A DNA stretch of 33,831 nt from Bacteroidota bacterium. Lineage in GTDB: Bacteria > Bacteroidota > Bacteroidia > Chitinophagales > Chitinophagaceae. The stretch spans positions 1-33,831 of the forward strand of contig JAKQKY010000006.1 in NCBI GenBank assembly GCA_029560415.1, in the 5' to 3' direction. The notes beneath the pieces were generated by a model that searched no databases, was not told the origin of the DNA, and saw only the letters and a list, made by a program, of their open reading frames with translations. Positions 2,862-33,831 of this stretch are shown here, in pieces; within the stretch, counting starts at the first letter, position 1, and each line of letters begins with the position of its first letter. Position numbers and translations under genes: made by a program.

Positions 2862-3875
2862 ATGTCAAAAAAAATCAGGTTTGGAATTATTGGTTGTGGC
2901 AGGATCGCACAACGGCATGCCGAGCATATCAATAGTAAAGGTGAATTGATTGCAGTGTGCGATATCGTGAAAGATAAAGCTGATGCCATGGCTACGCAAT
3001 ATCATGCCAGGCCATATTACCAGGTTGAAGATCTTTTGGCAGAAGCCAGTGATATTGATGTGATCACCATTTGTTCACCCAACGGGTTGCATGCCGAACA
3101 CAGCATCAAATCGTTACAGGCCGGGTTTCATGTATTGTGTGAAAAGCCACTGGCCATACATGTACATGATTGCGGACTGATGATACAGGCAGCAGAAAAG
3201 GCGAACCGTCGTTTATTTGCGATCAAGCAGAACCGTTATAATCCGCCTGTTGCAGCGGTAAAGAAAATACTGGATGAAGGCAGGCTGGGGAAAGTGATGA
3301 GCATTCAATTGAATTGTTTCTGGAACCGTAACCCGGATTATTATGAAAATTCGTGGAAGGGTAGTCTTGCCCTCGATGGAGGCACCCTTTATACACAGTT
3401 CAGCCATTTCATCGACCTGTTATACTGGATGATCGGCGATGTAAAACAGGTGCATGCTTTCATGGGCAACTACCAGCACAAGGGCATCATTGAATTTGAA
3501 GATACAGGTGCTGTGATCCTGCAGTTTCAGAATGGAGCCATCGGTACCATCAATTATACCGTGAATAGTTTTGAAAAAAATATGGAAGGGTCGTTGACCA
3601 TTTTTGGAGAGAAGGGTACGGTGAAGATAGGCGGGCAATACCTCAATGAACTCGAGTATCAGCGGATTGAAGGATACACGATCACAGACTTGCCTGAAGG
3701 AAATAAGCCGAATAATTATGGCAATTATGTGGGTTCAATGAGCAATCATGATAAAGTGTATGATAACCTTATTGATGTGTTGAATAACAATGCAAGCATT
3801 ACAACCAGTGCTTTTGAAGGGATGAAGACCGTTGAGATCATTGATAAGATTTACCAATCAGCCAGCAGAATATGA
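2862..3875 (+). CDS. wlbA: Gfo/Idh/MocA sugar-nucleotide 3-dehydrogenase, WlbA/WbpB-like
   Basis: This is an NAD(P)-dependent oxidoreductase of 337 residues. The Rossmann motif GIIGCGRIAQRH is at residues 8-19 and the family signature CEKPLA is at 93-98, with the C-terminal domain containing a GGTLYTQFSHFID segment that supplies the active-site His. WlbA/WbpB oxidises C3 of UDP-GlcNAc-uronic acid so that an amine can be added there. The assignment rests mainly on the next two genes, an acetyltransferase and a DegT aminotransferase in WlbB, WlbC order; family membership alone would not fix the substrate. A GTG one codon upstream (2859) is a less likely start. The stop overlaps the next start in ATGA, which suggests translational coupling. 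Confidence 0.75.
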   Translation: MSKKIRFGIIGCGRIAQRHAEHINSKGELIAVCDIVKDKADAMATQYHARPYYQVEDLLAEASDIDVITICSPNGLHAEHSIKSLQAGFHVLCEKPLAIHVHDCGLMIQAAEKANRRLFAIKQNRYNPPVAAVKKILDEGRLGKVMSIQLNCFWNRNPDYYENSWKGSLALDGGTLYTQFSHFIDLLYWMIGDVKQVHAFMGNYQHKGIIEFEDTGAVILQFQNGAIGTINYTVNSFEKNMEGSLTIFGEKGTVKIGGQYLNELEYQRIEGYTITDLPEGNKPNNYGNYVGSMSNHDKVYDNLIDVLNNNASITTSAFEGMKTVEIIDKIYQSASRI

Positions 3876-4339
3876 ACCAGCCAATATTATTAAAAGCGCA
3901 GATCAGCAACGTACATTTCGGGATTGAAGTTAAAGTTGTAGAGCCGGTTAATTTGTATGGATGCAGCATCGGCGATCATTGCTTTATCGGCCCATTCGTG
4001 GAAATCCAGAAAGACGTGAGCATTGGCAAGCGTTGTAAAATACAATCTCATACATTCATATGTGAGCTGGTAACTGTTGGGGATGAATGTTTCATTGGTC
4101 ATGGGGTGATGTTCATCAACGACCTGTTCAGTGAAGGCGGACCTGCGGGAGGGGATAAAACGAAATGGAAGAAGACCATAATTGGGAACAAGGTTTCTAT
4201 CGGATCCAATGCAACGATTCTCCCTGTTTCTATTTGCGACAATGCGGTGATTGGCGCAGGTGCAGTTGTAACAAAGGATATATCACGCCCGGGGATATAC
4301 GCAGGCAACCCGGCGAAACTAATTCGATTACTTTCTTAA
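3872..4339 (+). CDS. wlbB: Sugar N-acetyltransferase, WlbB/WbpD-like
   Basis: This 155-residue left-handed beta-helix acetyltransferase is expected to acetylate the 3-amino group formed by the following aminotransferase. Hexapeptide turns such as CSIGDHCFIGPFVEI and VSIGKRCKI appear early. The segment CFIGHGVMFINDLF near residues 71-84 matches the region in WlbB/WbpD that holds the catalytic His and Asn. The end, ISRPGIYAGNPAKLIR, is typical of this group. Proteins described as WbpD/WlbB are somewhat longer (about 190 residues), so this is a compact form. Its start overlaps the preceding dehydrogenase stop by 4 bp, and the aminotransferase follows after 13 bp. QdtC/FdtC-type enzymes for dTDP-3-amino sugars are close relatives and cannot be excluded. 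Confidence 0.72.
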   Translation: MNQPILLKAQISNVHFGIEVKVVEPVNLYGCSIGDHCFIGPFVEIQKDVSIGKRCKIQSHTFICELVTVGDECFIGHGVMFINDLFSEGGPAGGDKTKWKKTIIGNKVSIGSNATILPVSICDNAVIGAGAVVTKDISRPGIYAGNPAKLIRLLS

Positions 4340-32175: not shown

Positions 32176-32667
32176 ATGAATTATTTTGAACTGTTTGATA
32201 TACCCATTGCGCCTACCGTGAAAAAGGCTTTATTAGCGGAAAAATATTTTGCATTACAGAAGAAAAGTCACCCCGATTTTTTCAGCCAGTCTAACGAAGC
32301 GGAGCAGGAGCAGGCTCTGGACCAGTCGGCCGACATCAACAAGGCCTTTACCATTTTCCGGGATGATCAGAAAACGATTGAATATTTTCTGCAGGTGACG
32401 GGGCATATTGCTGCGAATGAGAAGTATGAATTGGATCCTGCCTTTTTGATGGAGATGATGGAGATGAATGAAACGTTGATGGAGGAGGAAGAGGCCGAGG
32501 CCAGGAAGCGAGTGGCGGATTATGAAGAAACTTTATATGATGAAATAGCGCCAATCCTGGAGGGTTACCAGGCAGGGGTACAGAATGCAGGTCAGATGGA
32601 ACTTTTGAAGGGGTATTACTACAAGAAAAAATATTTGCGGCGTATTTTGGACAGGTTAGCTGATTAA
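32176..32667 (+). CDS. hscB: Iron-sulfur cluster co-chaperone HscB
   Basis: HscB is the J-domain partner of the HscA (Hsp70) chaperone and helps release iron-sulfur clusters from IscU. The 163-residue protein opens with NYFELFDIPIAP, has HPD at residues 32-34 in KKSHPDFF, and continues with a helical C-terminal domain (about 75-163) that includes DPAFLMEMMEMNETLMEEE and YYYKKKYLRRIL, the last resembling the IscU-binding region. The length is normal. HscA and IscU are not in the window. The start is fixed by the promoter box just upstream. Confidence 0.92.
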   Translation: MNYFELFDIPIAPTVKKALLAEKYFALQKKSHPDFFSQSNEAEQEQALDQSADINKAFTIFRDDQKTIEYFLQVTGHIAANEKYELDPAFLMEMMEMNETLMEEEEAEARKRVADYEETLYDEIAPILEGYQAGVQNAGQMELLKGYYYKKKYLRRILDRLAD

Positions 32668-32677
32668 TGTAATATTG
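32646..32677 (+). promoter_or_regulatory. Possible promoter for tRNA-Leu
   Basis: TTTG (32646-32649), a 20-bp spacer and TAATATTG (32670-32677) resemble the Bacteroidota promoter with one mismatch in the -7 box. It lies across the end of hscB and gives a transcript start about 12 bp before the tRNA. Confidence 0.4.
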
Positions 32678-32693
32678 CCTCCCGATTTCAATT

Positions 32694-32777
32694 GCCCAGA
32701 TGGCGGAATTGGTAGACGCAACAGACTCAAAATCTGTCGTTCGCAAGGATGTGCAGGTTCGATTCCTGTTCTGGGCA
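32694..32777 (+). tRNA. tRNA-Leu (anticodon CAA)
   Basis: The acceptor stem is GCCCAGA (32694-32700) with TCTGGGC (32770-32776), followed by discriminator A. The anticodon stem is ACAGA/TCTGT (32721-32725 and 32733-32737) with loop CTCAAAA, giving anticodon CAA at 32728-32730 for TTG codons. There is a long variable arm, as expected for a class II leucine tRNA, and a T arm with GGTTCGATTCC. The 3' CCA is not encoded. An open frame over this gene (from 32700) is an artefact. Confidence 0.97.
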
Positions 32778-32787
32778 CGAGTTAAAG

Positions 32788-32818
32788 AAAGGCAATTCCG
32801 TCAGGGTTGCCTTTTTTC
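32788..32818 (+). terminator. Rho-independent terminator after tRNA-Leu
   Basis: AAAGGCAA (32788-32795) pairs with TTGCCTTT (32807-32814) over an 11-base loop, and the stem runs into a T tract (TTTTTTCTTT). It starts 10 bp after the tRNA. From here to 33000 the sequence is AT-rich with no gene. Confidence 0.85.
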
Positions 32819-32955
32819 TTTGTGTAAAATTCAAATATTATATTTTTTCTTAATTTTCATTGTCGCAATAACCAAAAAATTCATTTCTTTCAAAATCTAT
32901 TGTTTACGTGGCTTTTCTGCAAATAATTGGTTTTGTTAATTGCGTATATTTAATT

Positions 32956-33454
32956 GTTAGCTGAAATTTTTTTGACCATTTCAATTCTATATAGATTTTA
33001 TGACGCACAGCAAAATCATCGACTTCGTCAAATGTTTACTTTGCTTTCTCATAATGTCGTGCAATTTGGGAAAGGAGCAAAAAAGAAAGGTATTATTAGA
33101 ATCACAGATTGGTACTTATATTTTGGATACAACTAAAACATCATTAACTGGATATAGGGATAGTTTTGATAAGTATAAATCACTTACGATAACTTTTAGC
33201 AAAGATTCATTTTACTTAAATCAAAAAGTTCCATTCATATTCGATAGTATTGGAACATGGACTGTTTCTGAAGGAGGTGTGGAAGACTGGAACTGGTTGT
33301 ACTACAAAAGTAATCCAAACATTAGCACTCAATTCACTGAACCTTGGACAACCGATTCTGTGTTTTACCTGAACAGTGTAACGCCGCAAAAGGGACAGGT
33401 TGCTATCAATGTAATTTATTTTAAGAAAATGAAGTAAGCAAAACTTCAGCTAAC
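32956..33454. repeat. Inverted repeats bounding the small lipoprotein gene
   Basis: GTTAGCTGAAATTTT at 32956-32970 is matched, in inverted orientation with one mismatch, by AAAACTTCAGCTAAC at 33440-33454. One copy is 29 bp before the start codon and the other begins just after the stop codon. In an integron gene cassette the first bases after the GTT crossover are complementary to the R'' arm of that cassette's own attC, and this is the same relation. No integrase is in the window. Confidence 0.7.
33000..33437 (+). CDS. Small putative lipoprotein of unknown function
   Basis: This 145-residue protein has a basic N-terminus, a hydrophobic stretch (residues 9-20, FVKCLLCFLIMS) and a lipobox-like IMSC with the lipidated cysteine at C21. 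It would then be processed by signal peptidase II and anchored to a membrane. The mature part is rich in Thr, Ser, Lys and aromatic residues with a likely beta-sheet pattern (for example SLTITFSKDSFYLN and SIGTWTVSEG), reminiscent of small lipocalin-like lipoproteins of Bacteroidota, but no family is recognisable. It is more AT-rich than the housekeeping genes upstream and is bounded by inverted repeats and an attC-like element, which suggests horizontal transfer. ATG at 33000 is the only start that includes the signal sequence. Confidence 0.7.
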   Translation: MTHSKIIDFVKCLLCFLIMSCNLGKEQKRKVLLESQIGTYILDTTKTSLTGYRDSFDKYKSLTITFSKDSFYLNQKVPFIFDSIGTWTVSEGGVEDWNWLYYKSNPNISTQFTEPWTTDSVFYLNSVTPQKGQVAINVIYFKKMK

Positions 33455-33681
33455 AAAAGCATTGGCAAAATTCGGGCGGACAGTCAAATGCTGAGCATTT
33501 GATCTCTACCAATCAGTGGTTATAGGCCTGACATTTTCTAATCCGCCAGCAGATGTTGGCTACGCTCTTACTCTGCTGGCTGGTTTGGTGGTTCCATCAA
33601 AATTTCCGTTCTTTAATAAGAGTATCGGCCAGGCGGACAAAGCAACAAATTCCCAAACCTCGCCAATGCTCGACGTTAGCC
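33449..33681. other. attC-like structured element (233 bp)
   Basis: The ends form two nested inverted pairs: GCTAAC (33449-33454) with GTTAGC (33675-33680), then GCATTGGC (33459-33466) with GCCAATGC (33662-33669), separated by unequal spacers of 4 and 5 bases. This is the R''-L''...L'-R' order of integron attC sites, and the right end GTTAGCC fits the core GTTRRRY. The interior also folds: TCAAATGC/GCATTTGA (33484-33502, loop TGA) and GCCAGCAGA/TCTGCTGGC (33545-33580). GGCGGACA occurs at 33475 and 33632. At 233 bp it is longer than attC sites described to date (up to about 150 bp), so this may be a related but distinct element. A 64-codon open frame inside (33516-33710) is probably not a gene. 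Confidence 0.5.
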
Positions 33682-33689
33682 ATAATTAT

Positions 33690-33831
33690 TACGCCGGTTC
33701 AACATTCTAACGCAACGTTAAGACAAAATTCTTAGCTTGTATGATGGATAAAAAGTACGGTCGAATGACCCTCCCAGAGCGTATTGAAATAGAAAAACAA
33801 CTCAGCCATAAGAAGAGTTTATCTGAGATTG
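33690..33831 (+). mobile_element. Left end of an IS30-family insertion sequence (partial)
   Basis: The transposase start at 33741 is preceded by TTCAACATTCTAACGCAACG (33699-33718), which resembles the TCAA...AACGCAAC part of known IS30-type terminal repeats. The outer boundary is approximate, since only one end is present and no target duplication can be checked. The element begins within about 15 bp of the attC-like right end. Confidence 0.5.
33741..33831 (+). CDS. IS30-family transposase, N-terminal fragment (cut by window end)
   Basis: Thirty codons are visible, from ATG at 33741 (a second ATG follows at 33744) to the last base. The protein reads KYGRMTLPERIEIEKQLSHK followed by SLSEI, which matches the start of the N-terminal helix-turn-helix of IS30-type transposases (compare LTxxERxxIxxLLxxGxSxxEIA). 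The catalytic DDE domain would lie to the right of the window. The call depends on this short segment and the terminal-repeat-like sequence before it. Confidence 0.65.
   Translation, partial: MMDKKYGRMTLPERIEIEKQLSHKKSLSEI

Follow-up and report, generated by a model that had tools for sequence, protein, structure and literature searches.

A single-gene unit with a long paired-end hairpin as a probable cassette of a Bacteroidia integron-type system with a non-IntI recombinase

Near the right-hand end of a 33,831-bp stretch of DNA from a Bacteroidota bacterium (contig JAKQKY010000006.1 of assembly GCA_029560415.1; hereafter the window) lies a single-gene unit that we interpret, at a probability of roughly 0.92 based on sequence comparison, as a gene cassette belonging to a Bacteroidia integron-type system, one with a non-IntI recombinase, a short attI and a long attC with paired ends. 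The cassette anatomy, the arrays, an attI at the array head in both array layouts, covariation in the attC stem, the linkage of attC sites to the recombinase and the sharing of an entire cassette, its attC included, between two distant genomes can all be read directly from the DNA, and in every structural respect tested the system appears integron-like. The first-pass annotation of the window had proposed either an atypical cassette of a chromosomal integron or a mobile unit of some other cassette type, and both halves of that proposal hold: the anatomy is that of an integron cassette and the recombinase is not IntI. The evidence set out below supports regarding the underlying observation as real and the integron reading as largely right.

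The putative cassette occupies 719 bp on the plus strand between two G/TT points (32957–33675; the slash marks the join). A tRNA gene (32694–32777, plus strand; Rfam tRNA, 60.3 bits), the anticodon region of which reads by eye as tRNA-Leu, lies just 5' of a leader (32837–32955, plus strand) and is the sole match above its own Rfam cut-off in 32500–33831. The leader, which does not figure in the first-pass annotation, has a second copy in the genome, at a recombinase-headed array on contig C375 (BLAST, 84% over 121 bp, window 32837–32957), and ends in the attI-like core TTGCGTATATTTAATT/G (32940–32956, with the attI-like junction at 32940–32955; plus strand), where the cassette joins at G/TT. 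Within the unit we located, as that annotation had it, the cassette start GTTAGCTGAA (32956–32965, plus strand), its reverse complement TTCAGCTAAC (33445–33454, plus strand), which constitutes the R'' arm, and a single ORF (33000–33437, plus strand) encoding a 145-aa product that is lipoprotein-like by eye and has no Pfam or NCBIfam match. The start and its own R'' are complementary at 10 of 10 bases, and the longer match of 15 bp with one mismatch was confirmed by eye (14 of 15). The R'' arm opens an attC-like site (33445–33684, plus strand; covariance model R1, 58.1 bits, E = 9e-13), a hairpin of 232 bp in which, again as first described, the L'' arm AGCATTGGC (33458–33466, plus strand) and the L' arm GCCAATGCT (33662–33670, plus strand) form a nested 9-bp L stem and R' GTTAGCC (33675–33681, plus strand) closes the site, doubling as the start of the next cassette. 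This site is outside the 20 rows from which R1 was built.

A search of both strands for the layout of the unit (start and R'' matching at 10/10, L stem ≥9 bp) gave a single instance in the window and no instance in 200 dinucleotide-shuffled versions, and the folding of 33440–33686 surpasses that of all 200 shuffles on both strands (z = −4.28 and −3.59). R' runs into an insertion end (CGCCGGTTC..., 33691–33831, plus strand), which we take to be IS30-like, carrying the start of a transposase-like ORF that is truncated by the contig end (33831), and the window shows no further cassette. The IS30-like end gives a weak HTH_38 match (18.2 bits, below the cut-off of 27), and the same stretch recurs in other contexts at two contig ends of genome G699 (L088 and L089). 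No recombinase gene is present among the window ORFs that were read. The region from 1 to 20800 holds a polysaccharide-type gene cluster with glycosyltransferase-, acetyltransferase- and MBOAT-like ORFs, all named by eye.

Further copies in the genome, which the first-pass annotation had suggested looking for, were found in the form of three more sites. Contig C123 carries a second attC-like copy (88%), and contig C375 carries both a third copy, cut by the contig end, and one more site of the attC family (R1, 92.9 bits). The C375 array runs from a tyrosine recombinase (401 aa from the first ATG) through an ORF of 109 aa, the leader, a first unit, an attC-like site and a RelB/RelE cassette to the cut site. 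The RelB/RelE-like cassette begins with GTTAGCGGA and ends with TCCGCTAAC, and the Pfam matches of its RelB-like and RelE/ParE-like ORFs all fall below the Pfam cut-offs. Contamination of the assembly is given as 7.3%, and the window and C375 may therefore derive from different organisms. The leader part of the query had no match in the other genomes among 30 of the genus. The copy on C123 (L021, G000; minus strand, ~2879–3900) belongs to a decayed cassette that stands alone and comprises a MoaF-like ORF and a single attC-like site; it lies 3' of a tRNA, the 3' part of which is repeated between tRNA and cassette.

The model R1 is a covariance model of 20 attC sites from eight loci (alignment A3). 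Within this alignment the 18-pair stem has 89.3% of its cells paired, as against 63.5% after shuffling and 37–47% when slid, and the stem covariation of 0.611 (0.173 in shuffles) was reached in none of 500 shuffles; further pair types in the stem are no more numerous than after shuffling (25 versus 24.4). The sites measure 120–235 bp and contain conserved GGGCKGGAC-like interior motifs, which recur inside the A3 sites in one orientation. At E ≤ 1e-6, R1 has at least one match in 114 of 395 Bacteroidia genomes, in a scan confined to that class in which the model was roughly calibrated, the filters were strict and six candidates per genome were considered. A shorter attC subtype of ~137–139 nt is common among these class-wide matches and is also seen at L066 (9317–10583, minus strand). 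By DNA search the attC of the window finds matches in only 5 of 294 family genomes (its own being one of the 5), since the interiors of these sites vary from species to species, and a BLAST search of this attC against plasmids returned one short match (E = 0.2).

The complementarity between the start of a cassette and the R'' arm at its far end proved to be a general property of the arrays. At locus L082 of G699, nine successive cassettes each have a start complementary to their own R'' at 9–10 of 10 bases; L165 likewise has nine cassettes in a row, and among the 30 genomes of the genus there are many tandem copies in G699 and several in G683. With homology as the sole criterion for picking G699 sites, 6 of 7 variable positions were reached by 15 of 19 own pairs, compared with 3 of 24 pairs within the same attC and 5.7% of random pairs. 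In a second set, drawn from further loci and arrays (68 sites from multi-site loci, with L083 and L084 of G699 also belonging to the G699 set), the first 10 bases were complementary to the cassette's own R'' in 35 of 44 neighbouring pairs, as opposed to 4 of 65 within the same attC and 4.9% of random pairs; the rule fails in the other 9 of the 44. A start at 9 or more of 10 bases was present within 3 kb for 184 of 239 listed attC sites, and for 242 of 2384 control AACs outside sites in the same loci. (The A3 rows themselves had been picked by their length and their start–R'' match, and they are therefore no evidence for the rule.) The longest ORF lies in the array direction in 21 of 23 examined cassettes. 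An initial search that demanded pairing of R'' with R' inside one attC missed the array sites. The integron R' consensus is GTTRRRY; the cassette starts found here read GTTRNNNGHHA (among 52 starts, R in 52, G at position 8 in 51 and A at position 11 in 51), with GTTR in all 52 and positions 5 and 6 not confined to purines.

Hairpins that are repeated, palindromic and situated at assembly breaks, with an isolated and decayed copy on C123, could also be dispersed repeats or small transposons (REP-, MITE- or IS605-like) that lie between genes by chance. We consider this extremely unlikely: the hairpin ends are complementary to the start of the neighbouring gene unit and not to one another, and the hairpins share a common orientation within arrays that have a recombinase-linked head.

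We examined the linkage of attC sites to the recombinase in loci from a scan of 84,980 species genomes with the recombinases of C375 and of G020 (L065), which are 43% identical to each other; the best 80 of 551 confirmed stretches were used. Bacteroidota taxa are given on 79 of these 80 records and 'bacterium' only on one. R1 produced 147 matches in the best 80 loci, 138 of them downstream on the recombinase strand, spread over 38 loci of which 27 have at least two, and none upstream on that strand in 631 kb; the other 9 lie on the opposite strand at divergent array heads in five loci. The recombinase is thus usually co-directional with its array (38 loci) and divergent in 5 of the same 80. 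Nineteen of the 147 matches, all among the 138, are rows from which R1 was built (the 20th row is L065, outside the best 80), and 10 cover part of the model. Within the best 80, 12 of the 51 loci with at least 1.5 kb downstream have no R1 match; the remaining 29 have less than 1.5 kb, too short to tell.

At the head of the arrays stands a motif, TKCGTATATTTNNNNGTTR, which we regard as the candidate attI: arrays of up to nine cassettes begin exactly there. Of 16 junctions selected through this motif, 15 continue from it with N4 and then GTTR. With at most one mismatch the motif occurs within 900 bp downstream of 21 of the 80 recombinases (the best 80 of 551), and the reversed motif downstream of none; at two mismatches the figures are 42 and 15 of the 80 loci. 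A cassette starts exactly at the attI GTT in 10 of 30 loci examined, these being the loci within the best 80 that have the motif at up to two mismatches plus GTT, and a chain of two or more cassettes starts there in 6 of the 30, as against 53 and 2, respectively, of 4130 control GTTs. In G020 (L065) the recombinase ends ~80 bp before GTGCGTATATTTACGA-GTTGCCTGC, at which a cassette with the R'' arm GCAGGCAAC begins. In the divergent loci L171, L175, L179, L180 and L181 the recombinase points away from the array with the motif between them, and in 5 of 5 the attI faces the array, 129–145 bp beyond the 5' end of the recombinase open frame. A strict attI pattern, found in 2 of 395 genomes of the class, was too narrow.

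The linked recombinases have an intact catalytic signature: R, K, H and R are present in 79 of 79 from the best 80 loci, and H and Y in 78 of 79. They differ from IntI between the GKGKKDR and HxLRH motifs, a segment of 72–76 aa in all 79, compared with 114 in 3 IntI proteins; the L165 recombinase, outside the 79, has 71 aa, and in the tree set the segment measures 71–74 aa in 31 of 31 recombinases and 113 in 19 IntI. Alignment with IntI4 (2a3v) indicated that ~40 residues are missing, and the ~40-residue IntI insertion (the additional domain near patch III) is absent from 79 of 79 recombinases of the best 80 loci. The C375 protein scores 174 bits against the IntI family TIGR02249, which has a cut-off of 265, and has its best NCBIfam match in NF040815 (XerA_Arch; 197.6–200.9 bits, below the cut-off of 220), a family matched by 44 of 44 relatives scanned. 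A tree places these recombinases in one group (97/86) apart from IntI (100/99); built from 55 of 103 rows, with its root unknown and long 'other' branches, it cannot separate one integron origin from two. Modelling of the structure (mean pLDDT 86.7) gave XerA/XerC-like and IntI4 folds as matches and added nothing beyond the sequence. By the absent insertion and the scores below the IntI cut-off, the system is not an IntI integron, and we take it as a distinct integron-type system. Of the IntI-type recombinase that the first-pass annotation had proposed to look for, one part is in evidence: a tyrosine recombinase heads the C375 array, but no IntI over the family cut-off was found in this genome.

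The cassettes might nevertheless be moved by a conventional IntI encoded at another place in these genomes or in a former host, with the linked recombinase as a bystander; in the wider GTDB phylum, 105 of 395 genomes do encode IntI over the cut-off, which contradicts any blanket claim that the phylum has no integrons. (Bacteroidota are among the phyla listed with integrons in PMC8618304, and for Bacteroidetes proper a passage of PMC9024848 gives one complete integron, that of Salinibacter ruber M1.) However, none of 7 genomes with such sites encodes a protein over the IntI cut-off; of 108 genomes with a strong IntI match, one (G432) is from the order of the window and the other 107 are all from other classes; 20 IntI loci (71 kb) contain no R1 match at E ≤ 0.1; and the attC sites adjoin the non-IntI recombinase. 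We judge such a division of roles to be very unlikely.

Evidence for movement came from a comparison of 184 cassettes across loci, in which matches over at least half their length were counted. Three cassette pairs matched in different loci, one of them on two G699 contigs. A 1318-bp cassette common to L166 (labelled Chitinophagaceae UBA1931) and L220 (G339, of the window's class and another order, and therefore probably of another family than L166) is 97.9% identical, with its attC at 99%, and lies among unrelated neighbours; it codes for an ArsR-type regulator and a MerT/HMA protein (mercury transport). At its right edge identity drops to 38% just after CGTTA, and at its left edge similarity is 79% in the final 33 bp, in keeping with the general likeness of attC ends, and 21% in the 47 bp before them. 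Precise boundaries, another thing that the annotation had proposed to seek, were thus seen for cassettes in relatives and not for the window's own cassette. It had further stated that the joint absence of other copies, of an integron-type integrase and of precise excision would refute its reading; other sites, a non-IntI tyrosine recombinase at the head of the C375 array and precise boundaries in relatives were found.

In the pair formed by L116 and L165 (array positions 2 and 5), identity of the cassette is 84% between GTT and a point shortly after R'', with a similarity of only 0.51 for the attC interiors and of 0.28 for the upstream sequence. A plain whole-cassette move does not explain this pattern. 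The moving unit could instead be only the gene between two R arms, with the attC interiors staying in the array, and the likeness of attC interiors across different genes in G699 also fits that idea. In L166 and L220, however, the attC travelled with the gene at 99%, and a later exchange of attC interiors, which is our guess, can explain L116/L165 as an older pair; movement of the gene alone strikes us as unlikely.

We return to the integron-type reading, in which whole cassettes would move. In the mechanism that we envisage, the linked recombinase, a tyrosine recombinase related to XerC, XerA and IntI that heads the arrays without the IntI-specific insertion, would be the enzyme and would cut at G/TT. 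Its substrates would be the short attI and the long attC. The latter, presumably acting as one folded strand, has cassette-specific R'' and R' ends and, between these, a short spacer without pairing, ~18 bp of covarying stem and an interior that varies. The excised circle would rebuild R' from the cassette's own start, because of which complementarity between start and own R'' would be kept while the sequence varies. Recombination itself we infer from these arrangements. The window's one cassette is joined to the extra leader copy and has no recombinase next to it; it may be served in trans from C375.

Chromosomal integrons resemble this system in having recombinase-headed arrays with one small ORF per cassette as a rule and a toxin-antitoxin-like cassette, as well as an attI junction, structured attC sites with R'' complementary to the cassette start and whole-cassette transfer. 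Here, in contrast, the IntI insertion is absent and the score falls below the IntI cut-off, the attI motif is its own, R' reads GTTRNNNGHHA, which may set it apart from GTTRRRY, and the attC sites, at 120–235 bp, carry the GGGCKGGAC-like interior motifs. The window attC, which has no adjoining recombinase, is comparable to the CALIN or lone attC sites of PMC9024848, but has an attI-like leader, and a recombinase-headed array is present elsewhere in the assembly. Xer/dif modules share an Xer-like recombinase, and the left arm of the G020 attI, GGTGCGTATA, resembles what we take to be a dif arm; whereas those modules use short dif-like sites, the sites here are long covarying hairpins with cassette-specific ends. 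Although NF040815 is the best NCBIfam match of the C375 recombinase, this protein falls short of the family cut-off (220) and is linked to cassette arrays. NF040815 bears the name 'site-specific tyrosine recombinase/integron integrase', and a relative on a Chryseobacterium plasmid carries it as a product name; the protein family has therefore been named, though we found no description of this cassette system in open-licence PMC papers.

If our reading is correct, many Bacteroidia (the 114 of 395 with at least one R1 match) carry cassette sites of another integron type, and mercury-transport and toxin-antitoxin-like genes move between distant hosts. The IntI-specific additional domain is called necessary for integron recombination in a passage of PMC9668308; an integron layout without it makes that necessity testable, and opens to experiment both the recognition of a folded attC by such a recombinase and the question of a single or double origin of integrons. 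That Bacteroidia possess a second, independently evolved integron system, an Xer-type clade with its own attI, structured attC and a class-wide cassette pool unseen by IntI-based surveys, is a proposition for and against which we find the odds evenly balanced.

The plasmid of Chryseobacterium sp. SNU WT5 (L235) encodes a relative of the recombinase and has two R1 matches (37.6 and 27.7 bits). Its array includes IS110-family and group II intron maturase genes, each followed by the same attC-like 3' half (14590 and 17659); in classical integrons some such elements target attC.
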